Assembly: GCA_026770025.1 (NCBI GenBank) | Contig: JAMXDE010000052.1 | Coordinates: 248,001 to 312,000 of the forward strand | DNA from: Craspedostauros australis | Taxonomy: Eukaryota > Bacillariophyta > Bacillariophyceae > Mastogloiales > Achnanthaceae | Direction: 5' to 3' | DNA: 64,000 nt | In this document: one piece after another, positions 677 through 52,927 of the stretch | Position numbering within the stretch: position 1 is the first letter of the stretch | Layout of the letters: every line of letters starts with the position of its first letter | Program-made: the position numbers and the translations under genes | Notes under the pieces: model-generated | Told to the model about the DNA's origin: nothing | The model's input: the letters and a program-made list of their open reading frames with translations, nothing else | Databases searched by the model: none

Positions 677-1835
677 CGCACTTTCTGCGCAACTTCACCC
701 GACGGTCTCACCATTGCGCCCATCTTCACGTGTTCTACCTCACAACAACGGCACTTCTACTCGTGAAGCACATTGCGTCACGAACTGCCGCCACCACGAC
801 ATACAACTCCCAGCACATTTTTTGGTTCCGTCGCTTCGCTGTCTACTCCCAACCAAGACGTGCAGCATAAATCGTCGCGATGCCACGAAGGAATGAGCAT
901 CCAACATGCGCCCACCACTTAACTACTACAGCCTCCCTGTACCTTAAGCTAACGGAAACCCGTTGCAAGATTTATGACACCACATTCCCTGGAATCGTGT
1001 CCTCGAATGACCAGTCCCAAAGATACTACTGTAGTCTCTTATGCTTCAGTCATGTAAACCACTCAAAGTTCCTCCATTATAACGTTCGTCCACCGCATAC
1101 ATAACGTCCAACGAACAGCGCCTGTCGAACATGGGTTTTGCTTCGGGATTGATCGCGGAGGCGCTGCCATCGGCATTCTGACGACTCATCTGCACAGTCT
1201 CTGCAAATCGCAGGCTCTGTTTGTGCTCCTTCCTTGCGATGATGCCAACGAAGCAGGAACGCTATTTACGTAGAAGTATAATACATGGCATGGCATGGCA
1301 GCTGTGTGATGTTAGCCTGGCAGAGCGTTCTTGGATGGATTTTCCTGTACACATCTCAAATGAACAGCGCTGTGTTGCGTTGCAGTTCGCTTTGAAAGGC
1401 ACTGACATTCCTTTTGGGCGAGCTTTCACGAACATGAGTTCCATTGGCATCCTTTGTGCCCATCTCCAAATGTCCGACGTGACTTACCAACAGCATGCAC
1501 GCCGTAAATCGATCGTTGAGTCCAACCACGAGTTATTTTGTCGCAAGAAACTACACGCCAGTCACGACAACAAGAGGTCACAAACCAAAATGTCGGTCAC
1601 GGTGTCTCTTTTGAATCACCGATGCCGACCGTCTTACGTTCCAACTACACTTACCCAACGCGTTTGTGACATCGCGTCACAAATTCGCGCTTGGCCAGTG
1701 GCATGACCGATGTGAACATCGGAACGAGATCGGAGGAGTGTTTGCATCCTCCCTCTGTCATAAAAAAACTCAAGCAGCAACAACAACATTCGCAACGATA
1801 CCACATCCGCAAAAGCAACAGCCAACCGATACAAG
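677..1835. other. Intergenic, no gene supported
   Basis: No ORF here looks coding. One open frame (1239-1706, plus) has an ordinary composition but no recognisable motif and no paralogue elsewhere in the window. The 3' half probably holds the promoter and 5' leader of the gene at 1836, which is CAA/CAG-rich from about 1770. Confidence 0.5.
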
Positions 1836-2432
1836 ATGACGACGACGATGATGATGAACACCCAGCAGCAGCCTGCCAAGAAATCAGTCACCTTCTTCGG
1901 CTACGCCAAGCAGCATGCGACACTCCACATCAAAGACTACACCAACGATGAGATCGATGCCTGCTGGCTCTCAAAGCAGGACAAGATCCACACCAGACAG
2001 GACATTATCGGCACTCTCAGACAACACGGCAACAGCAACAGCAGCGATCTTGACATCCGCGGCTTGGAAAGCCATACGGTGCAGGGATCTCAACAGAGAC
2101 GAGCGAACCGTGATGAATCCATCTCCGCCGTTCTCGATGAACAGGATCTGCAGGAACATGAAGGGTCTTTCTGTCCCGATATGATCGCCGCAGTCTACGC
2201 CGACACCACACGCAACGCGCAGATGAGAGCCAATGTGCAAGCGATGCTGGATTATCAGGTGGTGTATTACACAGAGCACACCGATGACAAGCAGACAGCG
2301 ATGGACATGGACACAGCTACAAACACAAGCACTGCGATGTGCGCATCGCGTCAAGTGCAGAGTGTTGTGCTGCAGACGAACCAGCAGCATCAATCCATGG
2401 TGTTCTGCAGCGTCGCTGGAAGCGCCGCTTAG
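1836..2432 (+). CDS. DYT-motif family protein, copy 1 (hypothetical, diatom-type)
   Basis: A 198-codon protein of unknown function. After a short Thr/Met/Gln-rich start it has a beta-strand-like segment (KKSVTFFGYAKQHATLHI, about residues 15-32) followed by the motif DYTNDEIDACWLSKQDKIHT. Later come a GLES element, a basic QQRRANRDES segment, and a predicted helix with EQDLQEHEG and YADTTRNAQMRANVQAM. I associate this order (strand, DYTxxE, W-S/T, R-rich GLE region, EQ-Q helix) with a large family of hypothetical proteins in diatoms; no function is established to my knowledge. It is clearly paralogous to the gene at 20612-21301, with the same middle and the same C-terminus SVAGSAA. The ATG at 1836 is the first in the frame after a stop. 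The gene ends 491 bp from the end of NTPase copy A and is convergent with it, the same arrangement as the second copy beside NTPase copy B. Confidence 0.8.
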   Translation: MTTTMMMNTQQQPAKKSVTFFGYAKQHATLHIKDYTNDEIDACWLSKQDKIHTRQDIIGTLRQHGNSNSSDLDIRGLESHTVQGSQQRRANRDESISAVLDEQDLQEHEGSFCPDMIAAVYADTTRNAQMRANVQAMLDYQVVYYTEHTDDKQTAMDMDTATNTSTAMCASRQVQSVVLQTNQQHQSMVFCSVAGSAA

Positions 2433-2923
2433 ACAGCAACAGCCGTAATCAATCCATCGCTGGTGCACATAGTAAACGAACATGAATACTAACGAAAGCG
2501 AGCATACGCGTACCAGTACCAAACAACACACAGCACGACATCCCCACAACTCGACGTGGACACCATATCAACGCGTACAGATACAATGGCCAATTATACC
2601 GTAGATTCCCATAAATCCCCACCAACTGTGAATAGAGCAAGCTAACCACGTATAGTTGATGAAGTGGAAATTATAGTACGCCAATCGGCTTATGCTACGT
2701 CCATGTACCAATGCATCGTCAAGGGCCCTGACTTTTCGCCTTTCGTGCCAGCCGGTACCTATGTGCACCACGTTCGTCCATCCCTCGATTCCCACCTGCG
2801 GTTACTTCATCTTTCGGGTCTCAGGATGACAATAGGCGGCCATGCATGGATCAATTCCTGATGGACGATTTTTCATCAGTCGTCCTATTCCAGTTCTGTT
2901 GCAATCTATCGTACTCCGCGCAA
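2433..2923. other. Intergenic between convergent genes
   Basis: No gene is visible. From about 2646 the sequence is nearly the same as 50408-50689, so it is the 3' flank of the duplicated A/E NTPase unit. It should contain the 3' ends of both convergent genes. Confidence 0.6.
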
Positions 2924-5900
2924 CTACAAGGCATCAAAGTTCACCTCTGCCATGATCTTGTGGGCTGTGGCAACGCACATCCGCGTGTCCGCCGTGTGCT
3001 TGGCGGGTCGTCGTTTCCGTCGCTGACCATTGGTTTCTCCGTCGCCACTGTCGGTACCGCCTTCCAGCATGCTTCGATCGAGAAAGTTCGGATACTTCGC
3101 CAGCATCTGCTCTACCTTTGCCCTTGCTCCCCATTCGTTGTACAACGAGATGGCATTTCCCAGATACTGCCGTGGCCAGTAGAAGTCTTCATCATCATCC
3201 AGGACACCCGCGCTCTCAAAATCGGAGCTTCGTGAGGGATCGCTCAAAGTTGTGCGACGCAAAGACCCAGACAGTGCCAGTGTGCCTGTGTGCTTGTTCA
3301 GAAAGTACTCGGCGGCAAGCTCATTTGCCAGCGCTGCATCATTGACGTGTCCCGATCTTGCGCAATAGGAAATGGCCTTGTCGTACGCTGCCTTCACCTT
3401 CTGTTCGGATTGCTTCCCTCTTACTGCCATCTTGTCTGCCTCCATGATGAGATACCGATGGAGGTTGTTGCCACCATTCCTCTCGACCAGACGACGAAGT
3501 TCTGCCGTGTAGTTTGCCGCCTTGCGGTGGTACTTCCTCCGCTTTCTCTTGCTGTCTGTCTTTTGCGCCATCCTGGACATGGTAAGCCCACCTTGAAACA
3601 CCCTCACGGTCTGCCTAACAAAGGTATTGTCGAGCCCAGCGCTAGCTTTTGATGGCCCCATGCAGATCTTTCCCAGCTCCAATTCACCGAAGTACATCGT
3701 TAATTGCTCGTAGCACCAGTACCATATGCCCCAACGAATGTGTTGCTCGCGATCCATGTCTTTGGCTGATGGGACATCAGACCGGTCCTTCCAGTGCCCG
3801 GTTGATTGTTCACCTGATTGCTCCCGAATCACTTCGCCTTGAAGTCGAGCAGACGACATGCCCAGCAAGATCTCGAAGAAACGTTGGACTTGTCCATACG
3901 AGTTGGACATCTCTTTCAGGTTGTAATGCTCGGCTTGCACCAGGAGGATCGTCACAGCGCGGTGCAAGGACACAAGCGGGACCCCGCACATGAAGCCATG
4001 TAGCAAGCACATCCCCCAGCATCGATATGCATGAGACAAATCACCTGCTTCCATCCCAGCCTGATGGCCTTTTTGATAGGCTGCCAAACATACATGTACA
4101 GGCTCGGACCACGCAGCCAGAAATCCTGTATCTGCCACGAAGAACTGGCACATCACGTATTTGGAGTGCGTCGTAGCGAGAATCCTTGCCGGGAGCGTTT
4201 GCAGCCGTTTTGCGAATTTCACATCCTTCATGACATGTAATGCGACCGATCGCGTCAAATAAGCGCCATAGGCACCTTCGCCACTCAGCCCATGCTTCAG
4301 CATCAACGTCACCTGGCGAAATCCCGCGAGTAGCAACGTCGCATCCCTGGCAGCCAGGAAGGCAACAGATCCGAGGTACTGTAAGATCTTCATTGTCATC
4401 AACATCTTGGGATCGGTCATGACGGGAAGGTTCAGCACCTCCTCATCTGTGTGCTTCGCGAAGTACTTCTTGAGCTTTCTGAAGTCTCTCAGTGCCAGGA
4501 ATAGATGGTTTCTCATTGGGAACGTCCCCAGCAACTTGAGCGACCGAAGGTGTAAGTCACAAGCTTCCCCGTGTCTCTCCATCCGCTCGAGAGCCACGGC
4601 GAGCGATGTGTTCGCCTTGACAATGTCTTCAATGGAATTGTTGCAGTTGTCAACGATGGCCTGGCACAGAGTCGATCCCTTCTCATAGTTGCCGAGGGTC
4701 AGCTCAACCTCGGATAATCTGTGGTAGGTCTCCAAACACAGTTCATGCTGCGTCTTCCAAGGGTCAGCTATCTTGACCTCCAGATTCGTCAATGCCCGGT
4801 TCAAGTATTTCATTGCTGGGAGAAAGGCAGCCACGCCAACGGCAAGCTGCCCAACCTTGAGGTTCAGCTTGATCAGATCAAGCTCCGGGATGATAGTGTT
4901 GGTGGTTGTGAGCGAAGATGCATTCTCCAGATGATCCGCGGCCACAAACCACATCCAATCTTCGCCCAGCATGGGATCAGACGCGATCTCCATGAGGTGT
5001 TTACCAACTCGATACTTCAATTGATCGAGTTCGTCACCCGGAGGAGTCAACGAGAAGGCCGCCTGTTGGATTCGATCGTGGACGAAGCGGAACGTCGCAC
5101 AAGAGGTGACTGTGCCTTCAGCTATCTCTGCGGCGGTTGCTGTGTCGACATCGAGTCTCTCCAGTAGTTCCTCCTTCACTGCTAGATTCAATGCGTCACC
5201 TACGCTCATATCGGCCTCTGCCAAGATACGCATGGCGCCTCCACCATCTGCCTTCTGCTGCTGGTGTTCAATCTCCATGTCCATCAGCGTCTCCAACAAC
5301 GATTGACGGAATGTCGATCGCAGAAATGAAGCCATCTGCAAGCACCTCTGAAGATCCTCAGGCAACGAATGCAGCTTCGACGTGATCAGGTCGACTACGT
5401 TGGCGGCCATGTCGATCTCGTCGGCTGCTCGCTGCTCATCCCATTCCCATTGCATTGTGTAGATGTTGCGAGTCAGAGCCTTGCGACGGCGCAGTCCCTC
5501 CAACGCTTGCATCGTGTATAGTACGTTGCCTTTGGTCTTGTCATGGAGCAGCTTGGCCAGAGGGGTTGTTTTGACTGCATCCAACCGAAGTGACGATGCA
5601 AGCAACTCCGCAGTTTGGGTGACTGTGAGATCATTGAGGGGAATGTCGTGGATGGTCTTTCCGTTGTTTTTCCACTGTGAGACGGCAGTGGTGAGTTGGT
5701 GTTGAGGATCGTTGTGCACCTCGTTGGATCGGTATGATCCGATGATGAGAAGGTTGCGGATGGATTGGTCGATCAAGACTTCAGTGATGAGCTTGAGAGA
5801 TCGTTCATCAACCCATTGAAGGTCTGATCGTGTGGGCACAGGTGTGCAAATGTGAGAGATTGGGAACGTGAAAGATACAACGGTGGTTCAGTGTGGTGCG

Positions 5901-7059
5901 TTGTGACAGCGTACTCGTACACACGAGCTGGAAGGAATGGGCGATTCACACACGCACTGGTACTCCATGCAAACATGCAAGCGTCGATGCCGCGTCGAGG
6001 CCGTGGAGGAACATCGCGCATATGAAACAGACGATCCCATTGCTATCACTCACCATCCAGGTAGAGCACGAGAGGACGGCCGTCCGTGCAGATAGCCTTC
6101 AGGATGATCTTGAAGCTGTACACCAACTGAACCCACTCGTTCGTTTTGGATCCAGCGTGGGAGAACGCGCCTGTGTTCATCACACTTCCCGAAGCTATCG
6201 AACCTGCAGAAACCGACGCCTGCTCTTCGCGAAGCAACTCGCCTGAGCGACCGCTTCGGAAACTGTTTGAGGTCGCGATATCCACCACATTGCCAGCATT
6301 GCCTGCAAGACTTGCCCGATGTTCCTTCAACAAAGACGCAAGCCCTGGAATGGCGCGGCACGCAAGCATGCGGCGTGTGGCATCCATCTTCCGATTGAGT
6401 CCCATCCTGATCCGGTCGCATTCTTCAGTGTCGCCAGATACAACAAGGCTCCGAAAGAAATGTGACAGCGCATCCACGATGGCCGAAAGATTGCCACCTG
6501 CATTGAATTGGTCGTACTTTCCCTTTCCATAGTGACATGGATGCGAGTCAGCTCGTCGCTTGTTTGATGGCATGGGTGATTCATCCTGTACAGAGTGAGC
6601 AATTGCGGATGTTGCAGTTTGAGACGGCGGAGATGATGGGGGCGGCGATGGTGACTTGGTTGCGCCATCATTCAATCTATGCAAGAAACGATCCACCAAT
6701 GCTGATTTTCCCGTCCCTGAATAGCCGTGGATGAGGACGACCTGCGCATCCTTGTTGCTATCGGCACTGCTGCTGTCATCACGAGTGTGCTTCGTCAGTG
6801 GTTTGCGACATATGCGACCGTAGATCGAGTTCAATCGTTCCAGCTCATCTTCGCGTCCCACGAAGGTGCTGAACTGGAATTGATCCCACTGTTCGTCATC
6901 GTCATCGTCATTGTTGCCATCGTCGTCGTCACCGAAGCTGTGGTTGTCATCGTCGTCGTAGACACTGTGCTTGGGATCATCGGCAGTGTCTGTCCCTGGA
7001 TGCGATGAAGCCGGAGAGCCATCATTCGGATCCATGTTGGGAGCTGCTTTGTCTGCCAT
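2924..7059 (-). CDS. STAND-type NTPase with TPR-like C-terminus, copy A
   Basis: Predicted 1301-residue protein from exons 7059-6054 and 5823-2924, with a 230-bp GTGAGT...CAG intron. Residues 1-60 are acidic and disordered (runs of Asp). VGREDELERL is at about 67, the P-loop GYSGTGKS at 112-119, Walker B LVLYLDD at 330-336 rejoined across the intron, then LQWVDERS, the sensor GSYR at 364-367, and RFVHDRIQQAAFSL from 581. A long helical TPR-like region follows and ends with a LYNEWGARAKVEQ element (about 1230) and a basic tail. STAND NTPases (AAA_16 class, COG3899-like) are ATP-driven switches in signalling. No cyclase, kinase or other output domain follows, so either the TPR region recruits partners or the output is separate. 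The substrate and partners are unknown. The start ATG at 7059 matches copy E's start. The C-terminal 179 bp resemble copy B more than copy E. Confidence 0.85.
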
Positions 7060-7216
7060 GGTGTTTGATGCCTTTGTCGATCGATGGTTTCGAATGGTGC
7101 GACGTATTGCGGGGTCTGATGGTGCGAGACCCGACGGATTATACCGACACTGTCCTGAAAGAGCGTGTTGGTATTGGTACGTGGTCGTGTTTGTGTATTA
7201 TGAATGAAGTCCAATG

Positions 7217-7248
<32 letters not shown>

Positions 7249-7612
7249 GTCTCTGAAGTGAGGACGCAGGCACGTTCAGCTCCAAGGATCGAGAGCGGAG
7301 GAATGCGATGTGAGTGCTGGTGCTCTCCTTCGTGACAACAGACTGTTGGCAGGGATGCTCGCGGCTGCAGTTGATGTCGTTGCTGGTCACGGCCGTCAAG
7401 GCATCACGATGGCGCCGCACAAGTTTGGACGCTGCTGTTCCAGCGACTCGAAATGGCTCCAGATGGACAGCGAAGGAGGCACGAGAGACACTTGGAAACG
7501 GTAATGAATGTCACAGTGTTCTTCGTTGGTGCTTTGGGTGGAGAATGGGTCATGGATGGACACAAGCGAAGTTCTGAACGGCTATTGCGAAAATTTATGA
7601 TGACTAGGCAAT
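7060..7612. other. 5' flank of NTPase copy A
   Basis: No gene. It shares sequence with the 5' flank of copy E (63258-63934) and contains a CT microsatellite. The promoter of copy A should lie here, but I see no clear core element. It ends where the split-repeat element begins. Confidence 0.5.
7217..7254. repeat. CT microsatellite in the NTPase A promoter region
   Basis: Nearly perfect (CT)n, about 19 units with two GT interruptions. It lies about 160 bp upstream of the copy A start. The equivalent tract upstream of copy E (63603-63626) is 12 perfect units, so the length varies between the duplicates. Confidence 0.95.
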
Positions 7613-7917
7613 GGTACCTGACCCCGCATGCACATGTGGGGATGTGATCTGATATGAGTAGCATGGTTCTACTGTTACGAAGGGGGTCATGTGTCCTGCC
7701 ACCTGAGTTGACTTGTACGAATCGACTCATCCGAATCAGTCAGGATCAGCCGCGATGATTCCGGAGAAATTCCTATGCAGGAATGGGATGCCCGAAGCTA
7801 GTGCTAGTGAGCTAGGCCCACTGCCACATCCCAAAGCGCGCGGGGCGCTCATTCTCTGATACCATACTGGCGTCACATGCTGTTCAGTCACAGGGAGGAG
7901 TGTATCCTCATTTTCCT
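7613..7917 (-). repeat. Split direct repeat B2 (305 bp)
   Basis: Identical by eye to 8179-8483 (offset 566). It begins GGTACCTGACCCCGCATG and ends CCTCATTTTCCT. It is the outermost, 3' terminal repeat of the minus-strand element. Confidence 0.9.
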
Positions 7918-7929
7918 GGGTGGTGGGAG

Positions 7930-8179
7930 GGAAAGGAAAAAGGAGCAGCGTAGATTTTCTCCCGCACCAACTTGCGCTTGTTGTTGCCGCACGAGAAATC
8001 CGTTTGTGAGCGATCCACTGGTTCTGTCTCAATTTTTTCGTGTCCTGTGTTTCAGGTGTGCGCTCCTGTGTTTGGAGTAAGCCGGTATCCGTGCTGGCTA
8101 GTGACTCGTCAGTCGCGTCATTGTCATCTTGTCTGTGTCGTTGCGTGTTCTGTTCCCGGGTTAGTCGTGACAACACGGG
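7930..8179 (-). repeat. Split direct repeat A2 (250 bp)
   Basis: Identical by eye to 10224-10473 (offset 2294). It begins GGAAAGGAAAAAGGAGCAGC and ends GACAACACGGG, abutting repeat B1. Confidence 0.9.
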
Positions 8180-8483
8180 GTACCTGACCCCGCATGCACA
8201 TGTGGGGATGTGATCTGATATGAGTAGCATGGTTCTACTGTTACGAAGGGGGTCATGTGTCCTGCCACCTGAGTTGACTTGTACGAATCGACTCATCCGA
8301 ATCAGTCAGGATCAGCCGCGATGATTCCGGAGAAATTCCTATGCAGGAATGGGATGCCCGAAGCTAGTGCTAGTGAGCTAGGCCCACTGCCACATCCCAA
8401 AGCGCGCGGGGCGCTCATTCTCTGATACCATACTGGCGTCACATGCTGTTCAGTCACAGGGAGGAGTGTATCCTCATTTTCCT
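8179..8483 (-). repeat. Split direct repeat B1 (305 bp)
   Basis: Internal copy of B2. It directly adjoins A2, sharing one G at 8179, and lies 46 bp from the stop of the recombinase-like ORF. Confidence 0.9.
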
Positions 8484-8529
8484 TCCCCCCTCAGTACCCG
8501 CTCCTCCTGTGACACAGAGCGTCACTCGG

Positions 8530-9117
8530 TCAGAGGGCTGCCGAGTAGCGCAGCAGTGCTGGGAGCATCTGCATCACATCAGCATAGTGCTGCTGCATTT
8601 GGAGTCGTGGCTGCCTGCCTCTAGCGGCCTCGAATCGCCTCCAGCGATTATTGAGGTCGATATCACGCTCGTCCACCTTTTGATTGATGGCCTGTGTGTT
8701 GGAGCCTCGGCGGAAAGAGCGACCGACTGCGTACTCTTCCACCACATCAATTCCCCGTGGGATCAAATCTGGTCGGTCCTCTTGGATGTCCAACAGCAGC
8801 TGGTGAAGGAGTGGCTGATAAGCCACTGGCTTTGCCCGTTGTCCCACCGAAGTGCGGAACACCGGACCCTGTGGGACCTTTCTCTTCTCATACCATGTGA
8901 GCATTCGCTCCACCCAAATGGAAGGTTGGAGACCTGACCTCGACTGCCAAGCCAGAGGCATGAGATGGTACTTCTCGCCCGATTCGGTTTTGAACCGACC
9001 AAGCAAGGCTACCACCGTGTGGCGGAGAGCGGGGTCCTTGTGCTTCATGCCCAACCCGTGGTGCTTGCGCATTCCAACAATGTCGGCAAGGACCACTTCT
9101 TGGCTCAAACCGTGCAT
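8530..9117 (-). CDS. Tyrosine-recombinase-like C-terminal region
   Basis: A 195-codon frame from an ATG at 9117. Segments consistent with a tyrosine-recombinase catalytic core are GRFKTESGEKYHLMPL (hairpin Lys region), GPVFRT, then GRSFRRGSNTQAINQKV (in the position of the HxxR box, with Arg for His) followed by NNRWRRFE, and a candidate nucleophile Tyr in QHYADVMQML near the C-terminus. The N-terminal Arg box is not obvious. In DIRS-order elements this enzyme integrates a circular DNA copy. The frame is offset by one base from the upstream ORF (10195-8888); dropping one base near 9118 would fuse them into a single protein of about 555 residues. The identification is by motif only, so moderate confidence. 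Confidence 0.5.
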   Translation of the reverse strand: MHGLSQEVVLADIVGMRKHHGLGMKHKDPALRHTVVALLGRFKTESGEKYHLMPLAWQSRSGLQPSIWVERMLTWYEKRKVPQGPVFRTSVGQRAKPVAYQPLLHQLLLDIQEDRPDLIPRGIDVVEEYAVGRSFRRGSNTQAINQKVDERDIDLNNRWRRFEAARGRQPRLQMQQHYADVMQMLPALLRYSAAL

Positions 9118-10195
9118 GAGACTCCTCTACCCGACTCTTGAGATGGTCGTGGGCCCGAGAGAGCTTGGCACGTTCATCCGCTGCCACACCATGGGAAGAG
9201 GCGAAGCGGTCGTTCAATCCTTGGAGGAGAACGAGGTGCTCCTTTGCCACTGCGGAAACAGCGACAAGGTTGGGCCACACTTGGGCTGCCTCCAGATCAT
9301 TGGCAGAGGGCGGAAGAGTTCCCAGTGAGCTCTGGAGCTGCGACACCCTGTTGTCAGTATCTGCGAATGCTTCACTGGTGGATTGGGTGAGTGTGTGGAT
9401 GGTGTCTTCGATGCTCTGCACTGCTTGTGTGACGGAACGAAGAGCAGTGATGGCTGGGTTGAGGTGATCCGCAACCAGGACGTTGAGTTCGGGTTTCCCT
9501 TTCAGGTCATCGACAAGCCGCTCCTTGGGGACAGCAATGTCGTCTACCACAGATCGAGGTCGCTTGGTGGTCACTGGAGTGGCAGACCCTGCGATGGTAG
9601 GGTCGTCCGGCCGTAGCCGCTTGGCAAACGGAGTCTTCTGGAACGATGTCCCACTGTCGAGCTTGTTGATGTGTGTGGAGTCGGTTTCACCATCGGCGAT
9701 GGACTGGAAGATGGAGGTCCAAAGCCGCACAGGACGAGGATCGACAAGAGTAGACGAGACTTCCTCTGAGAGAGCAAACTTGTTGATGCTTGGTGTGCAG
9801 AAGGCACCGCCGGACCCTCGTTGCTTCGAGGCAGGGCGGCAGATGAAGAGATCACCAGCAGCTGCGACGACTTTGTGTTTGCCATGCGCTGCAACACCAC
9901 AGTGATTCATGCCGATGGCCAACGCATTGGTGCAGAACGCCACACCAGACTTCCCAATGAGACCTCCACAGAACAGCTTCCCTGACGCGCCCGGAGCCTC
10001 GAACAAAGACACAAGAGCCAGTGACTCCGCATCCACAAGACCATAGCCAGACACCTCCATTGGATCAAGCAACACACTTCCCCCCCCGGAACCCAAAGAC
10101 GCACCGACCCGAGAGGACGCAACCGGCGGAGACGAAGACGGCGAACCATACCGCAGCACGCGAGCGGCGGCCGTGACATCCGGAGGCGACACCAT
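8888..10195 (-). CDS. Gag-like ORF of the split-repeat element
   Basis: From the ATG at 10195 this frame codes 435 residues. It has a Ser/Pro/Gly-rich start and a Cys/His-containing block (CGGLIGKSGVAFC, then a CGVAAHGKHK segment near residue 110) that could bind metal. A variable linker and a long helical, probably coiled-coil region (AITALRSVTQAVQSIEDTI; DDRFASS-type heptads) follow. After about 9118 the frame leaves the plausible coding reading and overlaps the recombinase-like ORF, so the real protein probably ends or shifts there. I infer a gag-like or linker role from its position only; no known domain is recognised. Confidence 0.45.
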   Translation of the reverse strand: MVSPPDVTAAARVLRYGSPSSSPPVASSRVGASLGSGGGSVLLDPMEVSGYGLVDAESLALVSLFEAPGASGKLFCGGLIGKSGVAFCTNALAIGMNHCGVAAHGKHKVVAAAGDLFICRPASKQRGSGGAFCTPSINKFALSEEVSSTLVDPRPVRLWTSIFQSIADGETDSTHINKLDSGTSFQKTPFAKRLRPDDPTIAGSATPVTTKRPRSVVDDIAVPKERLVDDLKGKPELNVLVADHLNPAITALRSVTQAVQSIEDTIHTLTQSTSEAFADTDNRVSQLQSSLGTLPPSANDLEAAQVWPNLVAVSAVAKEHLVLLQGLNDRFASSHGVAADERAKLSRAHDHLKSRVEESHARFEPRSGPCRHCWNAQAPRVGHEAQGPRSPPHGGSLAWSVQNRIGREVPSHASGLAVEVRSPTFHLGGANAHMV

Positions 10196-10223
10196 CGCAC
10201 CGAGAGAGAAAGGACGGAAGGAA

Positions 10224-10473
10224 GGAAAGGAAAAAGGAGCAGCGTAGATTTTCTCCCGCACCAACTTGCGCTTGTTGTTGCCGCACGAGAAATCCGTTTG
10301 TGAGCGATCCACTGGTTCTGTCTCAATTTTTTCGTGTCCTGTGTTTCAGGTGTGCGCTCCTGTGTTTGGAGTAAGCCGGTATCCGTGCTGGCTAGTGACT
10401 CGTCAGTCGCGTCATTGTCATCTTGTCTGTGTCGTTGCGTGTTCTGTTCCCGGGTTAGTCGTGACAACACGGG
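10224..10473 (-). repeat. Split direct repeat A1 (250 bp)
   Basis: Outermost 5' repeat of the minus-strand element, identical by eye to 7930-8179. The ORF start lies 29 bp inside it. Confidence 0.9.
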
Positions 10474-11822
10474 TGCCACATAACGTTTGTTCCCAGTGTT
10501 CGCGAATGTCGGCGACCTACGAGAACAAGACAGGTTCCAACCAATGCACAAACTGGCTTGTTGTACTTGAGTAATTCAGCACGTGTCCAGCGACAAAAAC
10601 ATGTTGATGTGGAAAAGTCCGTCGCTGAACTAAACACGGATTGGCCATCGACACAGAATGTTCGACATGGCTTGACTGATGTGATCCAATCCTGCCAAGG
10701 TCAATCCGAGCAACATGGCTCCCAATCAAATCAACCACTGTTCGAAGCCCATGCCCGCACTGCAGGTGTCTTTGCTGTTGTTCTCCTGCTGATGTTGAGC
10801 ACTTGATCTTGCTCATGTTCTGCACAACAAGAGTTCAGAACAAGCACTCCTCCAACATCGCCAGGCAAACGATCCAACAAGAAGAATCATCAGCCACTTC
10901 ACGGAGTAACACGACCCAAGATAGGCAGAAGATACCACTAACGAACCAGTACCACAAGACGATTTGCTATGTTGGTGAAGTAGTGTTGAATAAATTGTAT
11001 TATACCGTAGCTCCACAATCGCTATCATTGAGGTCGCGATTCCTTCCCAAATCACAGAGAAGCATGAAAAAATACACTAAGTCCCATCTTGTTCCGTGCG
11101 AAGAAGAACACAGAACACAATAGAACACAGCACCTCCATTCAACGGCACAAATAACCATTCAGACACGATCTGATACAACGCCACGTATACCACAACACC
11201 CCTTTTCCACACAGAACAACACACTCCTTCAACATACCAAACCAGACTTAATAGAGGGGTTCGAGTGGCCCCAGAACTTGGGTACTGGGACACGCCGGGC
11301 TGTCCGAATTCCAGGGGGAGCCCCGCTATTGAAACTTGTCTGGACGCAATGGAGACAGCCACTTTCGTGGGGATTTAGGTCTTTGCAATGCCCATGTGAC
11401 GTCACGACTCGCTTTCTTCCTTCCCTTTTTCCCGCACTGTTTCGTCAAACTGTTTGTTTCCTCATGGTACCAACATGGTTTTTCGCATTTTTGCCCAATC
11501 TGAACCAAAATGATTGATTCGATTGTCCAGATCTCTCTCTTTTTGCATCTCTTGTACGCGAATCATCGCATGATTCTTGTCTCTTCTTGTTTCTTTCTGT
11601 CAAAACAATGCACACTGTTAAAAATAAGGACGATAATGCCAAAACTTGAGTACTTTGATCTGTGGTCTATTCGCGTTGTTGGCAACGAGGAGGAGCGTTG
11701 GTTTCTTGTGTGGCAATCCATGCTCAACTCTCAACACAACTCATTCAGAAACTCGTTGACAACACTGCCAATTGACACTACCTCCTCCCTCCCTTCCTTC
11801 CAAGTCAACTTCATCTGCAGAG
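10474..11822. other. Intergenic between two mobile elements
   Basis: No gene can be supported. It contains an approximately 100-bp stretch (11161-11250) similar to 49690-49775 and a short fold-back sequence (11250-11330). The rest is AT- and CA-rich without a long coding frame. Confidence 0.5.
11250..11330. repeat. Short imperfect inverted repeat (fold-back, MITE-like)
   Basis: The ends AATAGAGGGGTTCGAG and, inverted, AATAGCGGGGCTCCCC match at 12 of 16 positions. Nineteen bases at the left end (ATAGAGGGGTTCGAGTGGC region) recur inverted at 20111-20130, so this is a dispersed element. Too short to code. Confidence 0.45.
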
Positions 11823-14800
11823 CAAGTTGTTAATAGGACTGAGTGAGTGAATCAATGTTGTTCGCAAATATTTATGAGAGATTGTATTGATTAGCGCTGG
11901 AGTTGCGGAAAGGATTCCTGATCGTAGCTTGCCTGTCTCTAGCAGAAAAGTGGGCGCGAGGTGCATAGCGTTCTGGCGATGGACAGGCGAGTCACGGGCG
12001 GGACTGGAATCAACACACCCTCGCGGAACTCCCAGCATGCTCTGTCCTGTTGCCTTGCCACTGTCTGGAGTGGGCTTGAGGTAGACTTCGCGCATTTTGC
12101 GATGGTGAGCTGCCGGATGATGTTTGGTGAAGTAGTCGGCGAGGTTGTCTGCTCCTGGGGCCCAATATATGATGAATTGGCCCTGTTGGACGCGGTCGCG
12201 TACCCAGTAGAATCGCATGTCCATTGCCCGTGTGCGTCGTTGTTTCATCGTGTTGTTCACAATCCCGGATGCTGTGGAATTGTCTGTTTTGATGGGCGTA
12301 GGTGGTTGGGGATGTCCCAGTTCGTCGAGCGTCGTGCGAAGTGCTGTGGCTGCTGTGCAGTTCAAGTACAGGGCGCCCACTTCGGCTTCGGCGGCGGAGC
12401 TCATCACATTTTGTATTTTGTTGCATACGGTGTGAATGGCGCCATTGTTGGGTGGCGCTGTGTTCGGGGCCTTGTTGGTATCGGTGGACCGCTTGCTGAG
12501 GTACATGTGGCCGCCGGCTCGGCTTCTCGCCTTCGGCAGGCTGAGGTAGGAGGCGTCGCTGTCGACATGCAAGACCATGTCGCTGGCTTGATACACCAGG
12601 ATGGCGTTGGGGTGTGTGGCGCAGTAGTCCATGAGCTGGTTCACGCGCCGCTCGGTGTCTTGTGTCGCGTGGGCCTGCTGTGTGGCGATGTCGCTTACTG
12701 CTGGCAGGATGGTTGGGTCTACCGCACGGGCGTAGTACAGCAGTGTCCCCACCACCTGTCGAATGCGGATGATTTGTTCTGCCGGGAGCTTGGGCGACGT
12801 GTCGTCGTGTTTGGGTTCTTGCGTCTTCGCCCCGTAGGTCAGCGCGTCCCATGGCGCTGGCGCATGTTGTGGTCGAGTGGGGATCGGGTGTTGGAACTTG
12901 TGGAGTGCTTTTTGCACGTATCCTGGCATGGAGAGCTCCACTGTTCGTTTCGCGTAGTCCCATTTGAGACTCACGCCGCAGTAGAGATCGCCGCTCCACT
13001 CGACCGTACACTTGTAGATGGTTTGCAAAGCGCCGATGAGGTGCTTCGCGTGTTCTTCGCCCACATATTTCACACCGAAATCGTCGACGACCAGGGTGAA
13101 AGTGATGGGTCTGCAATCGTGTTTCCACAGTCCAGGCGTGTGCACGACTGGGCGGTATCCGAATTTTGCGAGGTGTTTCTGGAGTTTCACATTCGCGATT
13201 TTGCCGGCCTGTGGGAGGCCGTACATGCCCTTGCGTACCTCCACATACACGTTGCCTTTGTGTTCGAGGTCGTGGAGTTTGTATTGTTCGACGACTTCTG
13301 GTGGCATCATGGCGATGGGCATTCGCATGTATTCGTAGCGCTCCATCTCGGTGTTGAGGTAAAAGTCTTTGATGTCGATGGTCATGAACTTGGCTGCTGG
13401 CGTAGAGATCACACTGTTGAAGAGACACTTGGCTGTTGTCAGTTCGGCGGTTGGTGTGTGTACGTCGAACGGGTAGTCGATGAGGTTGCCGCCTACGGTG
13501 AGGCGCGTGCGGTGGGTTTCGGCCTTCTGTGGTCGCACGGCGCACACGATGCGTCCGTATGTGATGGTTCGATCCTTGGGGACTTCGTTTCTCGGGATGA
13601 AGAAGATGGTGTTTGTGGCCGCTGTCGCGGGTATGCGCGTGCCGATGCCTTGTGCCAGTCTTCCAATTTCGTTGGCAAATGATCGGTACCACTGCTCGGG
13701 TGTGTGGCCATGCACTTTTCCTGCGACGAGATGTCGGTACTCGTACGCGGTTCCGGTGCGTTCGTCGATGACGGCGTTGGCCTTTGGGGCTTTGGCGTCC
13801 CATCGTCGTCGCTGGATGGCGCCTGTGCGTAGTCTCGTGCGGGTTGCGCTGGTCGTTTCGCTTGGTGGTGTGTCGTCGTGGTCGTCGTCATCTTCGTCGC
13901 CGGAGTCTTCGTCGTCCGTCACCGCCGGCGCCGTCTCTGGCACCCTCGGAGGTGCTGGCGTGTGCTGGTGGACAGCGCGTGGTTGGCTGGTTCGAGTGTT
14001 TGTTGTTGCCGTCGTCGCTGGGACTGTTGTGCGTTCCGGCACCCTCGGAAGTGGTGCATCTCGTTTGGCTGGGGCGACTGTTTGGAAGATTCGGCTGAGT
14101 TCCTCCAACGCGCCTAGTTGCTGGTCGCCGACTGCTTGTATTGGTGGGCAGGGCGTTTTGAGTGCCTCGGCCAGGTCGCCTGCGGCTTTGATGGCTAGCT
14201 CTGCGTTGGTTGGCATCGGTGTTGCGCAACGACTTGGCTTGAGTTCGACGGTGTCGGTGATGCGGACTTTCCGCGTGTTGGTGCAGTAGATTTGGTAGCA
14301 TTGGTAGTGTTCCATGGCTGGTGCGATGTACCATCCTTTGGTTTCGTGCGGTGCCCATGTGGCTCGTTTTGCTGGCTTGTCGTGTGCGATGGCTTTCGTG
14401 CCTGGTGGTGCGAGGGGTGTTGCGTTGAAATCGAAGTTTCCATGGAGGACGTGATACGCGGAGACGTGTGGGTTCACTCGTGATGGCCGGAGCAGATTGA
14501 GTGTGATGTCGCACTGAGGTAGCATTCGGCACCATAGATGCAATGGGAAGTCGTCGTCGGCTGTTGCCAGACCTGCGATGAAGTGATCTTTCCATGTCGA
14601 TATTGCTCTTTTGGCGGCGTTGCGCCGATGGATGCCTGGTGGAACTAGTTGGTATTCCATGTTTTTGGCTTGGATGAGCTGCTTGAGCTCTGCAGGCGCC
14701 TCGTTGTCCATTCGGTGGAATCGTGGCTTGAGACCCGCTCGCAGGAGAACATCCAGTAGTTCGCCGCATGCTCGCGTGAGTTCTGATGCGTGGCGACTTC

Positions 14801-15665
14801 GCATGGGGCGTGATAGAATGGCGTTCGAATCATGATCGTAGAGTATCATGATGTACTGGTTGCCTCTGCTTGACGTCACCGGGAAACGTCCAGTTTGATC
14901 GGTGTACGTCTTCCCTGTTGGCCGAAAAACGTCCATGAACACGTCATGGGGTTCGGGGGCATTCTTGGTGGACTGGTTGCCGTGATTGCACCGGTTCTTC
15001 GTGGATTGGGTGTTCTGGTACTGTTGACGCATGTGGCCTGCTGCCGTTGCATCGGAAGGTGGAAGGAATTTTTGAATTAGTTGCTCTGTGAGTCCCGGCC
15101 AGGACGCGAAGAATCCTTTCGTTATGGCGGTTGTGAAAGTTGCCACCGAGGGGCTGAAGCAACACTGGTGGAAAAATTTGGCGAGCTCCGTCTTGGTTGA
15201 CGTGTGGTGGATGTGATTGGCTGACTGCCGGACTACCAATTCATGTGGTGTGATGTTCACGCGATACATGCCGTCAACTTGATGCCGACGACCGGTGTGA
15301 ATCGTGGTTCCGTTTCGGCGAACACGTACTGCTTCTTGGTCAAACTCGACTGTCATACCGTGGTCACACAGTTGTCCCACGGATAGGAGTGCTGCGCTGG
15401 TGAGTTGTGGAAAAACTCGCGCGGTGCATGCGTGTTGGGGCACGTTGGTCATGCTCACCGTTGCTTGGTGCGACGATTCAATCGTCGAACCATCAGGCAG
15501 CATCACTGTGAGTGGATTTTTGTCGTTTGTCTTGTTGAGGCACGGATCGGTCGCTCGCAGGAAATGGCTGGTACAGCCAGAGTCGACAATGGCTAGGGCA
15601 GGCACACAGGGTGATGAATTCGTGATGGAGTTCACTACTTGGTTACTGTGTTCCTGCCGTTTTTG
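11811..15665 (-). CDS. Pol polyprotein of copia element 1
   Basis: A frame of 1285 codons directly after the gag TGA and in the same frame, with no ATG near its start, so it probably needs readthrough. The domain order is aspartic protease (AIVDSGCTSHFL), a gag-pre-integrase region, the integrase core (MDVFRPTG, then HRMDNEAPAEL, then RRNAAKRAISTWKDHF), reverse transcriptase (TLVVDDFGVKYVG as the YxDD box; MTIDIKDFYLNT), and RNase H (LHVDSDASYL; MSSAAEAEVGAL; IKTDNSTASGIV). In the integrase the D,D-35-E Glu position reads AAA (Lys) at 14612-14610 where relatives have ERAI, so strand transfer should be lost. The frame continues through the 3' LTR and 17 bp beyond it, so the last 70 or so residues are LTR translation. 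Confidence 0.9.
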   Translation of the reverse strand, partial: QKRQEHSNQVVNSITNSSPCVPALAIVDSGCTSHFLRATDPCLNKTNDKNPLTVMLPDGSTIESSHQATVSMTNVPQHACTARVFPQLTSAALLSVGQLCDHGMTVEFDQEAVRVRRNGTTIHTGRRHQVDGMYRVNITPHELVVRQSANHIHHTSTKTELAKFFHQCCFSPSVATFTTAITKGFFASWPGLTEQLIQKFLPPSDATAAGHMRQQYQNTQSTKNRCNHGNQSTKNAPEPHDVFMDVFRPTGKTYTDQTGRFPVTSSRGNQYIMILYDHDSNAILSRPMRSRHASELTRACGELLDVLLRAGLKPRFHRMDNEAPAELKQLIQAKNMEYQLVPPGIHRRNAAKRAISTWKDHFIAGLATADDDFPLHLWCRMLPQCDITLNLLRPSRVNPHVSAYHVLHGNFDFNATPLAPPGTKAIAHDKPAKRATWAPHETKGWYIAPAMEHYQCYQIYCTNTRKVRITDTVELKPSRCATPMPTNAELAIKAAGDLAEALKTPCPPIQAVGDQQLGALEELSRIFQTVAPAKRDAPLPRVPERTTVPATTATTNTRTSQPRAVHQHTPAPPRVPETAPAVTDDEDSGDEDDDDHDDTPPSETTSATRTRLRTGAIQRRRWDAKAPKANAVIDERTGTAYEYRHLVAGKVHGHTPEQWYRSFANEIGRLAQGIGTRIPATAATNTIFFIPRNEVPKDRTITYGRIVCAVRPQKAETHRTRLTVGGNLIDYPFDVHTPTAELTTAKCLFNSVISTPAAKFMTIDIKDFYLNTEMERYEYMRMPIAMMPPEVVEQYKLHDLEHKGNVYVEVRKGMYGLPQAGKIANVKLQKHLAKFGYRPVVHTPGLWKHDCRPITFTLVVDDFGVKYVGEEHAKHLIGALQTIYKCTVEWSGDLYCGVSLKWDYAKRTVELSMPGYVQKALHKFQHPIPTRPQHAPAPWDALTYGAKTQEPKHDDTSPKLPAEQIIRIRQVVGTLLYYARAVDPTILPAVSDIATQQAHATQDTERRVNQLMDYCATHPNAILVYQASDMVLHVDSDASYLSLPKARSRAGGHMYLSKRSTDTNKAPNTAPPNNGAIHTVCNKIQNVMSSAAEAEVGALYLNCTAATALRTTLDELGHPQPPTPIKTDNSTASGIVNNTMKQRRTRAMDMRFYWVRDRVQQGQFIIYWAPGADNLADYFTKHHPAAHHRKMREVYLKPTPDSGKATGQSMLGVPRGCVDSSPARDSPVHRQNAMHLAPTFLLETGKLRSGILSATPALINTISHKYLRTTLIHSLSPINNLLCR
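11828..12015 (-). repeat. 3' LTR of copia element 1 (188 bp)
   Basis: Same sequence as 16897-17084. The plus strand begins TGTTAATAGGACTGAG and ends GGAATCAACA. Preceded by TSD CAAGT. Confidence 0.95.
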
Positions 15666-16829
15666 TCATGCGTTCGTCGGCGCTCCTGCGTTGGACCCTC
15701 CCATGGTGTTGCTTCGGGTCGCCTCACGCTTGTGTCCTTCGGCGGGCTTGTTGCAGGTGGCGCTGTTGTGTGTGGCGCTGACCTTGTAGCCGTGCGTCCA
15801 GCAGTACGAGTTGTGCTTGTGTTTGTGCGTCTTCGCGGTTATTCCTCCTGCTCCTGCTCCCGCGGCGTTGATCTGAATCTTGGACACCATGGCGGTGATC
15901 TCGGACAGTTGCTTGACCAAGGTCGCGTTGCTTTCGGTGAGAAGGGTGACTGCGTTGCGGTCGGCTGCAGTGGCTGACGCAAGGTTCGCGAGAGCTTCGG
16001 CTGTCTCTTCGGCTGTTGTAGCTGCGTTGGCTCCTTGGAATCCCGAAGTCGTGGTTGACGACTGGGCTTCGCGGTGGTCTTGGTGGGCGGCTGCGAAGTC
16101 GGCTTTGAACCGTGGCCAGGTCTTGTCGGCGGCACTGAGGGCGCGGAAAGAACGGCATGCTTCGGGGAACTCCTGTGTTTGGAACACAAGGTTGTACGCG
16201 GTGTTGACCAGCTGGTGATCGGTGTACGGTGTCTTGGCTGCCGCGGCAAGATCGCGCGCGGATTCGATCTGTGCGACGAGCACCTCAAATGGCTCCGCTG
16301 GATTGTAGGCAGTCTTCATGGCCTTGTCGTTGGCATCCAGGTCTTGAGGGGTGATCTTGCCGTACGTGCTGTACAGGTGCGTGAGCAGCTGCAGGGTGGA
16401 GACGTTGGCGTATCCCACAATGTTGTGCCGAAGGGTTCGCACGTATTGATCCTCCACGGCGCCAAGAAGTTGTTGTTTGAGCGCGTTGTCGACGGCGCGG
16501 TACTCTCTCCACAGGCGCTCTTGTTCCTTGTGGATGCTGGTGGCTGCGCTGATCTGTGCTGCTGTGGCTCCCGTTGGGATGACTGGATGCGGTCCTGGAT
16601 TGGCTGGTACGACGAATGCCGTTGCCGATTGCTCGTTGTAGATCTCGTTGGATACGGTGAGAACCAGGTATCCCAGCTCTCCATTTCCCAGGGGGCAATG
16701 GACGGAAGCTGCGTTGGCGTTGAGTACAACGTTGAGTTCGGCGATGGTTTCGTAGGTGGGCAATCCGATGATCGGCTTGACGACGGCCTGCGGGAATGTG
16801 GCGAGGATTTTTTCGTGGCTGTTGGCCAT
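15666..16829 (-). CDS. Gag protein of copia element 1
   Basis: 387 residues from the ATG at 16829 (MANSHEKILATFPQAV). The capsid-like body is mostly helical with a UBN2-like central region typical of copia Gag. The C-terminus has a basic stretch KTHKHKHNSYCWTHGYKV followed by HNSATCNKPAEGHK, a Cys/His knuckle that differs from the usual CCHC spacing but fits diatom copia Gags. It ends in a TGA (15668-15666) followed by CAA. Pol continues in the same frame, so Gag-Pol could be made by stop-codon readthrough. Confidence 0.85.
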   Translation of the reverse strand: MANSHEKILATFPQAVVKPIIGLPTYETIAELNVVLNANAASVHCPLGNGELGYLVLTVSNEIYNEQSATAFVVPANPGPHPVIPTGATAAQISAATSIHKEQERLWREYRAVDNALKQQLLGAVEDQYVRTLRHNIVGYANVSTLQLLTHLYSTYGKITPQDLDANDKAMKTAYNPAEPFEVLVAQIESARDLAAAAKTPYTDHQLVNTAYNLVFQTQEFPEACRSFRALSAADKTWPRFKADFAAAHQDHREAQSSTTTSGFQGANAATTAEETAEALANLASATAADRNAVTLLTESNATLVKQLSEITAMVSKIQINAAGAGAGGITAKTHKHKHNSYCWTHGYKVSATHNSATCNKPAEGHKREATRSNTMGGSNAGAPTNA

Positions 16830-16896
16830 GGTGATGATGGTGGTGGTGTTGGTCTTGGTGCCCGATGTTTGGGTGAACTTGCTATTAGCGAACAAC

Positions 16897-17084
16897 TGTT
16901 AATAGGACTGAGTGAGTGAATCAATGTTGTTCGCAAATATTTATGAGAGATTGTATTGATTAGCGCTGGAGTTGCGGAAAGGATTCCTGATCGTAGCTTG
17001 CCTGTCTCTAGCAGAAAAGTGGGCGCGAGGTGCATAGCGTTCTGGCGATGGACAGGCGAGTCACGGGCGGGACTGGAATCAACA
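16897..17084 (-). repeat. 5' LTR of copia element 1 (188 bp)
   Basis: Identical by eye to 11828-12015. Followed by TSD CAAGT at 17085-17089. The gag ATG is 67 bp inside the element. Confidence 0.95.
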
Positions 17085-17089
17085 CAAGT

Positions 17090-22876: not shown

Positions 22877-25800
22877 CTACAGCGCATCTAAGTCTACCTT
22901 CGCCATCACCGTGTGTGCCGTCGTCAAACACATCCGCGTGTCTGCCGTGTGCTTGGCGGGTCGTCGTTTCCGTCGCTGACCATTGGTTTCTCCGTCGCCA
23001 CTGTCGGTACCGCCTTCCAGCATGCTTCGATCGAGAAAGTTCGGATACTTCGCCAGCATCTGCTCTACCTTTGCCCTTGCTCCCCATTCGTTGTACAACG
23101 AGATGGCGTTTCCCAGATACTGCCGGGGCCAATAGGACTCTGTGTCATGGTCGGCGATGCTCCCATTCTCGTACATGGCTTCGCTCGGGTTGCCTGGCGA
23201 GGACCCATGACTATGGGTACGGCTGATGCTGCCGCGTGCGTCAAAAGCCTTTGACGGCGAGGCCTTCATGAGGAAATACTCGGCAACGAGCTCATTTGCG
23301 AGCGCAGTTTCGTGGATGTAGCCAGACCTTGCGGAGAACGAGATGGCCTTGTCGTAGGCTGCCTTCACAGCCTCTTCCGATGCCTTTTGTGATGCCGCCA
23401 TGGCATCTGCTTGCATGATCATATACCGATGAAGAGAGTTCCCGCCCTTTTCTTCAATATACCTCTTCATGGTCTGTATGTGTTGCTTGGATTGGCGATA
23501 GTACTTCTTCTGTTTTCGGCGGTTGTTGGCGATACGTTGGGCCAGCCTTGACATGGTGAGTCCGCAATGGAAGACTTCGACGGACAGAACTACCATCGTG
23601 TTTGCTGATTTGCAGAGGCTCTGAAGCGGAGCGATGCATTTCTTGCCGACATCAAGATCACCGAAGTATGTCGCCAATTGCAGGGAGGCCAAATAAGCGA
23701 ACATGTCCTTGATCCATGCTCCAGGCTCAGCACGTTTGGATGACATGGAGTCCGCGAACTGTCTCCAGTTGTCTTGTGTGAACAGTGTTGTCGGGTCATG
23801 TTTGCCTATCAGGATTACCCAGACTGCATAGGTTGGCGCAATATGGTCTTCTACTGCCTTGAGACCATAATGCTGCGTCTGTACGATCAATGTCTTCCCC
23901 GCTCGATACAGTGGAGCCAGAGGCAGACCTGCAACGAATGCAAGCAGCAAACATGCAGCCCAGCACCGATATGCTGCCTCCAGATCACCTGTCTCCATAC
24001 CATCTTGCTGGCCACGACGCAAATCGGTGAAGCAGACGTGAATTGGCTCGGACCACGCGTCAATCATGGCACCTGCTGTGATGATGTAGTTCCCAAAGAC
24101 GTGCTTGGATTCGATTGTGTCAATGATACTCCCGGACAACGCACGCAACCGTTTTCCGAGATCTATCTCTTTGAGCTTACCCAAAAGAATCACCGCAGTG
24201 GTACTCATGGCATGGGCGCCTTCTGCGATCAGACCATACTTGAGCATGAGCCTGACTTGACGGAATATGACGAAGATAAATGTGGCGAGTTTGTTCGCGC
24301 CATAAGCCGAGTAATTGGCCTGGTGCAGTATCTCCATTGTCAGCTTGATCTTTGGGTCGCTCATGTGAGGGAGATTCAAGACCTCTTCGTCTGTGTGATT
24401 GGCAAAGTACTTCTTCAACTTTCTGTACTCCACAATTGCGAGGAATAGATGATTCCTCACGGGGAAGGTCTTCAACAGCTTGAGCGACTCAAGCTGGAGG
24501 TCCAGCGCCTCGTGGCATCGTTCCAGACGATTCAATGCCTTCACCAACGACAAGTTCACCAGGATCTTATCTTCCATGAACTGATCCGACCTCTCGACGA
24601 TGGTCTGACACAGCATCGATCCCTTGTCGTAGTTACCAAGGGTCAGCTCGGTTTCGGACAAGTGATGGTAGACCTCCCTGCACAGTTCATACTGCGTCTC
24701 CCAAGGATCGGCGATCTTGATCTCCAGATTCGTCAGGGCCTGGTTCAGGTACTTCGCCGCCGGAACGAACGCAGCCACACCAGCAGCAAGCTGACCGGCC
24801 TTGAGGTTGAGCTTGACGTAGTCGATGGTTGGAATGATACTGTCTGACACCGTGAGGGACGACACTTGCTCGAGATGGTCCGCAGCCATGAACCACATCC
24901 AATCTTCACCCAGCATAGGATCAGACGCGATCTCCATGAGATACTTGCCAACCCGATACTTCATTTGGTCGAGCCCGTCGCCTGGGGGCGTCAGCGAGAA
25001 GACCGCCTGTTGGATTCGGTCATGGACGAAGCGGAACGTCGCACCAGCGTTGGCTGTGCGTTCGGCTGGACCTGCGTCTGGATCGGTATGGAGTCTCTCC
25101 AGCAGCTCTTCCTTCACTGCCAGATTTAATGCGTCACCCACGCTCATCTCAACCACTGATAGGGTTTGCGTGGGGCCTCCACCATCTGCCTGGTTCATCT
25201 GGCGCTCCTCCATTTCCCAGTGCATCAGTGTCTCCAGCAACGACTGACGGAATGTCGATCGCAGAAACGATGCCATCTGCAAACACTTTTGCAAATCCTC
25301 AGGCAGCGAATGCAGCTTCGATGTGATCAGATCGACGACATTAGCTGACAGGTCGATCTCATCAGCTGCCCGCTGCTCATTCCATTCCCACTGCAGCGTA
25401 TGGATATTGCGAGTCAGGACGTTGCGACGGCGCAGTTCTTCCAACGCTTGCATGGTGTAGAGTACGTTGCCTTTGGTCTTGTCATGGAGCAAATTGGCGA
25501 GCGGCGTTGTTTTTATTGTGTCCAATCGAAGTGACGATGCGAGGAGTTCTGCAGTTTGGTCGACTGTAAGATCGTTGAGGGGAATGTCGTGGATGGCCTT
25601 GCCGCTGCTCTTCCATTGTGAGACCGCTGTGGTCAGTTGATGTTGAGGATCGTTGTGTACCTCGTTGGATCGATATGACCCGATGATGAGTACATTGCGG
25701 ATGGACGGATCGAGGAGGATCTCCGTAATGAGTTTGAGAGATCGCTCGTCGACCCATTGGAGATCTAACCGTGGAATATCAGTACAGGAGTGCGAAGGTG

Positions 25801-27203
25801 AAAGATTGCGGGCGAGAATGGGACACAAGAGTGGTTGAGTGAGATGATGCCGTGCAGTGTGGTAAGGTGTGGCAGTGTCAATATGAAACGAGAGGTATGG
25901 GCAGTTGAAGCACGTAGCCGAGTCTGCAAGAAGACGCATATGTCATATATGCTGACACTCCTTTCAACTTACCATCCAGATAGAGCACGAGGGGACGACT
26001 ATCTGTGCAGATGGCCTTGAGAATGACCTTGAAGCCATACACGAGCCGCGGCCATTCTTTCTCTCTCGATCCTACGCCTCTTCGTTGGTCGGTGTCATAT
26101 AGCGATTCTGTTGTCATCGACTTTGCACTGACTGACTGCTCATCAATCGACGGTGCGGCATCGTCAGTTGCTTCCAAGTCAACAGTCTGCTTGTTGCGGT
26201 TCATCATCCGAGATGGCTTGGAAACCATCTTCATCTGCTCTTGCCTGCCGACCATGTCTTCGTCGCCTGCATTGATTTGCAGACTATTTTGACATCCTTC
26301 CGCCAAGACGTTGGAAAGGCCGGGGATGATTTTGCACATGCGCCCGCGCTGGACATCGTCCACCTTGCTCCGGATGCTCTCCCTGATGCGGCTGATTTCC
26401 AGGATATCGTCAGGCTCGCCAGCCTCTCCGAGATGCTCGAAGAAACTAGACAAAGCATCCACAATGGCCGATAAATTGCCCGCGTTGTTGAACTGATCGT
26501 ACTTTCCCTTTCCAACATGGCATGGGTGCATATCTGCCTGTCTTTTGCTCTTATTGCCCTTCTCCTGTGCGGCGACATCGCTTCCGCCTGTGCTTGTAGT
26601 TGATGGTGCGATGCTCAAAGGTGCCGCTTCGACACCCAAACCCTCCAGGAAATGATTCACCAACGCAGACTTTCCTGTCCCAGAGTATCCATGTATGAGA
26701 ACAACCTGCGGTTCCTTGTTGCCTTTGCCTTTGCCTGCGCTGCTTGCGTCGGCTGTCTTGGATGGTTTGCGGCAAAGGCGTGCGTAGATCGATTTCAATC
26801 GTTCCAACTCGTCTTCGCGTCCAATGAAATGGTCGAGCCGTATCCGATCCCACCGTCCGCTGCTTGTGTTGTGACCGTGATCAGTGCCATTGCCATTGCC
26901 ATTCTCGTTGCCATTCTCGTTGTAGTCGACCCCGTGGAGCTCATCATCAGAATCTGAGTAGCCGTGCGCATCATCTTCGATACTGTAGATGTCGACCTTG
27001 GATTCACGCGTCGAGCTGGCGGTCTCCTTCGCAGTGTTGGTGGCGTAGTCGTCGTCCACCTCGTCAAACGTTGTACTTTGATTGGCGGCATCCGATACAA
27101 TGCCATCGGCATCGCTGCCGTGACGCAGATGCGACCCCGAAGTAGGCTGATCGCGGTCGAACGATGGGATGTGCACCATCTTTGACGAACGGTGGGAGAC
27201 CAT
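22877..27203 (-). CDS. STAND-type NTPase with TPR-like C-terminus, copy B
   Basis: 1372 residues from exons 27203-25973 and 25764-22877, with a 208-bp intron GTAAGT...TAG. The N-terminal 115 residues are Ser/Asp/Asn-rich with a GNENGNGNG repeat. IGREDELERL is at about 127, P-loop GYSGTGKS at 172-179, and Walker B LVLYLDD completed across the intron at residue 411, followed by LQWVDERS and GSYRSNEV. Later come FRFVHDRIQQAVFSL and the long TPR-like region ending with LYNEWGARAKVEQ. It shares the gene plan of copies A, C, D and E and is closest to C over most of its length. The last 179 bp are almost identical to copy A. No C-terminal output domain. The ATG at 27203 is in the same place as copy C's start (MVSHRSSK against MVTQRSSK). 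Probable cytosolic signalling ATPase; role unknown. Confidence 0.87.
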
Positions 27204-52903: not shown

Positions 52904-52927
52904 CTCCCCTATGGTCGGGGGTCTTGT

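Follow-up and report, generated by a model that had tools for sequence, protein, structure and literature searches.

The window analyzed here, a 64,000-nucleotide stretch of the Craspedostauros australis assembly, harbors at positions 7613-10473 an element of 2861 bp that is built of two interleaved families of direct repeats, denoted A and B, and an interior with two overlapping open reading frames (Table 1). On the plus strand, the order of the repeats is B2, A2, B1, interior and A1. Read on the minus strand, this becomes A1, interior, B1, A2 and B2, that is, the A1-ORFs-B1-A2-B2 arrangement of split-direct-repeat elements of the DIRS order, as the preliminary description of this locus had proposed, with the same ends. 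This arrangement is the one reported for PAT-like and Ngaro-like elements in the available parts of PMC4157794 and PMC8547959. The two B repeats are identical throughout, as had been claimed for both pairs, but the A repeats differ by a single mismatch in 254 positions (G at 7929 versus A at 10223; 99.606% identity). For comparison, when the letters of the 2861-bp element were shuffled 100 times, the longest exact direct repeat to arise was 14 bp. The terminal sequence of A1, CCCGTGTTG, is common to the relatives of the element at C14, C18 and C25 in the same genome.

Table 1. Features of the split-repeat element and of its insertion site (positions in the window)
Feature	Positions	Strand	Basis
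Left insertion boundary, AAT then GGTACC	7612..7613		left flank matches the empty paralogue to its last base
B2, 3' terminal repeat	7613..7917	-	pair with B1
A2, internal repeat	7926..8179	-	pair with A1
B1/A2 inner junction, GGGG on the plus strand, read as the recorded circle junction	8177..8180	-	sequence; G count fits the ends and the empty site
B1, internal repeat	8179..8483	-	305/305 bp identical to 7613-7917
YR-like C-terminal remnant, 195 aa	8530..9117	-	RSFRRGS, NNRW and HYADV motifs; no LR(G/A)EE Arg
Deletion junction: gag homology stops, YR homology starts, frame shifts	9101..9117	-	blastn, tblastx and blastp boundaries
N-terminal part of the gag-like ORF, 364 codons with homology	9104..10195	-	matches the C18 and C25 ORFs
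A1, 5' terminal repeat, 254 bp	10220..10473	-	253/254 identical to 7926-8179
Right insertion boundary, CACGGG then TGCC	10473..10474		match of the right flank to the empty paralogue begins with the first flank base

The flanks of the element match an empty paralogous site 40 kb away, on the opposite strand (C50:215471-215787 and 214956-215469, with 93% and 92% identity, respectively, and one base between the two matches). The empty site reads AGGCAAT-G-TGCCACAT, with AAT-G-TGCC at its core, whereas the element ends are AAT-GG-TACC and CAC-GGG-TGCC, and the inner junction is CAC-GGGG-TACC. No target-site duplication was seen in the comparison with the empty paralogue. The four G residues of the presumptive circle junction and the single one of the target add up to the two and three found at the ends of the element, and the balance is therefore as a conservative exchange gives. 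The identity of the target at the crossover, judged from the paralogue, amounts to this one base, as opposed to the 3-bp circle junction at which DIRS1-like elements recombine, also without target duplication, according to the available part of PMC3266345. Elsewhere in the assembly, three sequences match the right flank (10474-11000) and four match the left flank (7290-7612). The other two right-flank matches, L059 and L060, cross the site uninterrupted at about 81% identity, with no element inserted, and three of the left-flank matches end before reaching it, at query positions 285-287 of 323; the empty sites are paralogues rather than alleles.

Independent insertion of the repeats, named in the preliminary description as an outcome that would refute its reading, and likewise tandem duplication without any connection to an element of the DIRS type, are ruled out by the empty site, which bounds the entire 2861 bp. 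We found no evidence in support of such an origin, and the interleaved order of the repeats, along with the homology of A and of the interior to gag-bearing relatives, makes its probability negligible.

Across the two repeat pairs, there is one difference in 559 compared positions, whereas the flanks have diverged from the empty paralogue by several percent. Thus, the insertion is much younger than the segmental duplication, unless gene conversion homogenized the repeats. The recent move suggested previously fits the same count.

The interior of the element encodes, as had been proposed, a gag-like region and a tyrosine recombinase (YR)-like tail, both recognized by homology to frames of the relative at C25. 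The gag-like ORF starts with the ATG at 10195 on the minus strand and shows 67% amino acid identity to an ORF at C18 (364 columns) and 43% identity to the first ORF of C25 (330 columns). A Pfam search of this ORF yielded no gag match, and the putative label is taken from the homology to the first ORF of C25 and the place of that ORF there. Beyond the region of homology, the frame extends to a stop codon at 8888-8890, through YR-derived sequence that belongs to another frame. The YR-like ORF is 77% identical to the last 196 amino acids of the 537-aa YR-like frame of C25. The start of gag and the YR tail, the latter contributing about 190 residues, are thus joined in different frames. The window copy is about 5.6 kb shorter here than C25, lacking the interval from about 2268 to about 7889-7904 of L011, the C25 locus. 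Because the two homologies meet within the 17 bp of the junction and leave no room between them, the window copy lacks the reverse transcriptase (RT) and RNase H of autonomous PAT/Ngaro elements. A GAGC microhomology at the junction, present in the window copy as well as on the YR side in C25, was considered and dropped, the gag side of the parent not being at hand.

The identity of the YR-like protein was assessed in an alignment of nine sequences (A3), in which K43, R136, R137, W159 and Y178 are among the invariant positions. We take the invariant residues to be the R-K-(H/R)xxR-W-Y positions of tyrosine recombinases. The LR(G/A)(E/T)E motif is present in seven of the nine rows (LR(G/A)EE in five and LRGTE in two), with GL-SQE in the window copy and, in the remaining row (L030), a stretch that ends short of this site. 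Profile searches were less informative: there was no Pfam match for the window YR-like protein, the only Pfam match among the A3 rows was to PF12835 (Integrase_1), in two of the nine and with a best E value of 0.082, and no recombinase match was obtained in searches of NCBIfam, PHROGs and PDB sequence profiles. A single-sequence fold model of the 195-aa ORF, the check named in the preliminary description, had a pLDDT of 37, too low for use. We therefore refer to the protein as YR-like, on the strength of its motifs and their context. Comparison of the YR frame of C25 with that of C4 near 1.706 Mb (L012) gave a dN/dS of about 0.2 (calculated with our own script), the value to be expected if both genes had been functional until recently. 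When the genome was searched with the YR-like protein, 33 rows were returned, one of which is the window itself. Two of the matches, G000:C7 2144364 and 2154367, are located 10 kb apart and have identical scores, which suggests a duplicated block.

The alternative raised in the preliminary description was a compact recombinase element that keeps split repeats without an RT of its own; such an element would carry gag and a short YR and move as a distinct lineage. The complete ends, the open gag frame and the near-identical repeats are compatible with such an element, but the YR is a 195-residue remnant of what in C25 is a YR-like frame of 537 amino acids: it is out of frame with gag, lacks the first approximately 340 residues, so that its start falls inside the catalytic domain, and is missing the Arg of the LR(G/A)EE motif that is found in seven of the eight other rows of A3. 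Furthermore, no second copy of the junction was found in the assembly. We consider this alternative highly improbable, and a recombinase element without RT is not needed to account for this locus. Assignment to the Cryptons was rejected as well: these share a YR without RT, according to the available part of PMC4157794, but have only the YR domain, whereas the window copy has part of gag and split repeats, with the YR reduced to a remnant.

A longer relative with RT-like and RNase H-like frames between gag and the recombinase, of the kind for which a search had been proposed, is present at C25 and is homologous to the window element on both sides of the deletion. Its stop-to-stop frames are, in order, gag-like (751-3507), RT-like, with a YVDD motif (3511-5652), RNase H-like (5656-7101) and YR-like (6866-8476). 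The RT-like and RNase H-like labels are derived from motifs read by eye and from 46-48% identity to other loci of the genome, as a Pfam search of these two frames gave no match. Sub-threshold Pfam matches were obtained for polymerase frames of two of these loci, to RVT_1 at C4 near 264.6 kb (L041; E value 8.8e-4) and to RNase H at C2 (L040; E value 0.0019). In a genome search with the C25 RT-like frame, 27 rows were returned; seven of the places are 46-48% identical to it across residues 395-714 and lie in open frames of 919-1314 aa. The gag/RT and RT/RNase H boundaries at C25 each consist of a single in-frame UGA codon (3508-3510 and 5653-5655 of L011), which would fit decay as well as readthrough. 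Given these two stops and a self-comparison of 9.9 kb at C25 that revealed neither an A nor a B pair, this relative, too, is probably damaged.

The genome holds further RT-bearing families of the split-repeat type. B pairs are located behind the YR frame at C2 (392 bp, 100% identity) and at C4 near 264.6 kb (334 bp, 99.7%), in stretches that stop short of A1 and hence cover part of the repeat order; a weak pair (62%) was detected at C72 (L042). In the relative at C19 (L043), an identical 207-bp direct pair (1753-1959 and 2209-2415) occupies the interval between the end of the polymerase frame and a point shortly ahead of the YR frame. The alignment of the relatives also includes a conserved stretch after RNase H, without a Pfam match, in the region that is deleted in the window copy. 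In the available part of PMC4157794, a methyltransferase domain is assigned to PAT and not to Ngaro, and both Ngaro and PAT-like families are reported from the brown alga Ectocarpus in the accessible text of PMC12477816. We place the window element as PAT/Ngaro-like, without choosing between the two. The likeness to PAT and Ngaro elements, as these are portrayed in the sections available, consists in the split-repeat order of the window copy, the repeats behind YR, and the succession of gag-, RT-, RNase H- and YR-like frames at C25; unlike them, the window copy is devoid of RT, RNase H and most of YR.

A search of the assembly with the whole element returned at least 11 rows, and no copy besides the window itself spans the gag/YR junction; copy counts of the element are lower bounds. 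The A repeat matched the two copies in the window as well as C14 (97%), C18 (77%) and a short piece at C25 (89%). The B repeat matched only its two copies in the window, though comparisons with the element placed short B-like pieces (53-76 bp, 77-82% identity) behind YR at C25, C4 and C5. The C14 locus is a 728-bp 5' fragment with 92% identity to the element. No intact helper with the ends of the window element was found in searches with the whole element, A or B. In viral contigs, 19 stretches matched a search pattern and none was confirmed.

The locus is, very probably, a non-autonomous copy of a split-direct-repeat retrotransposon of the DIRS order (PAT/Ngaro-like) that integrated recently and carries an internal deletion. 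An intact element of this kind would encode gag, RT, RNase H and a tyrosine recombinase. Reverse transcription of the element RNA would yield a circle, with the B1-A2 segment serving as the template on which the ends are joined, and the recombinase would put this circle into the target without target duplication. In the window copy, which has complete ends and the inner junction, a deletion has fused gag, at about codon 364, to the final ~190 codons of YR, and RT and YR would have been supplied by an intact relative or by the parent, provided that the enzymes of the relatives have the predicted activities.

That the element derives by deletion from a fuller PAT/Ngaro-type element, as originally suggested, is borne out by the match of C25 to both sides of the junction, but its mobilization by a full element is not, only one copy with the junction having been found. 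With a single such copy, the deletion may predate, accompany or follow the last move. It probably arose at or before the last reverse transcription. The less favored course, in which the middle was lost only after the integration of a full-length copy, would give the same anatomy and is a tenable possibility, but one difference in 559 positions leaves little time for it, which is an argument of plausibility. A deletion older than the last move, with the deleted form copied by a helper, is compatible with the near-identical repeats, hence recent integration, and has a precedent in SIRE of VIPER, the mobility of which is itself left open in the available part of PMC6681497. This course appears rather unlikely, given that one copy with the junction is present in the assembly and an intact helper with close ends was not found. 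The likelihoods that we attach to both of these histories overlap with that of the non-autonomous deleted copy as such. It is doubtful, though conceivable, that the deleted form is the founder or a survivor of a non-autonomous lineage, with four repeats and the start of gag, that is copied and inserted in trans through a one-base target crossover.

Shortened forms of such elements are already known, and the window copy is a further case of a known kind of element. SIRE of Trypanosoma cruzi, which is the truncated, non-autonomous counterpart of VIPER, is likewise a shortened remnant of a split-repeat YR retrotransposon, but consists of the A2-B2 region, as far as it is described in the available part of PMC6681497, whereas the window copy retains all four repeats and parts of gag and YR. 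Another deletion variant, of a Ngaro element, is type 2b in Cafeteria burkhardae; in the portion of PMC8547959 at hand, it is said to lose about 2 kb covering ORF1, in contrast to the loss of RT, RNase H and most of YR, with the start of gag retained, in the window copy. The window locus preserves a clear natural record of how a DIRS-type element integrates, in which the inner junction, both ends and an empty paralogue are all readable. The target base can be deduced by counting from the other three, and the set is useful for testing circle-integration models of split-repeat elements.

Several other features of the assembly and the window were observed. The silicon transporter family PF03842 has 88 matches in the assembly, 32 of which reach 760 bits or more; 28 of these 32 are free of internal stops. 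The matches point to a silicifying alga, probably a diatom, as the host. Diatoms typically have 3-5 silicon transporter genes, according to the available part of PMC10700740, and the excess is either a striking expansion or a result of redundant assembly. At 11811-17086 of the window, there is a Copia-like frame (RVT_2, E value 6.7e-6, below the Pfam cut-off) with identical 190-bp repeats at 11828-12017 and 16897-17086. The window also contains two large tandem-like segmental duplications, one of 22879-27043 with 29122-33268 (74% identity) and the other of 2646-7163 with 50408-52195 and 60697-63362 (92-94%). An ORF in the latter (6046-7059) presumably resembles an AAA-ATPase-type gene, to judge from its motifs. 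The duplicated segment is interrupted by about 8.5 kb (52196-60696) bounded by identical 708-bp direct repeats (52196-52903 and 59989-60696). The two duplication matches around this insert overlap by 5 bp (4425-4429), and the insert looks like a recent LTR element.
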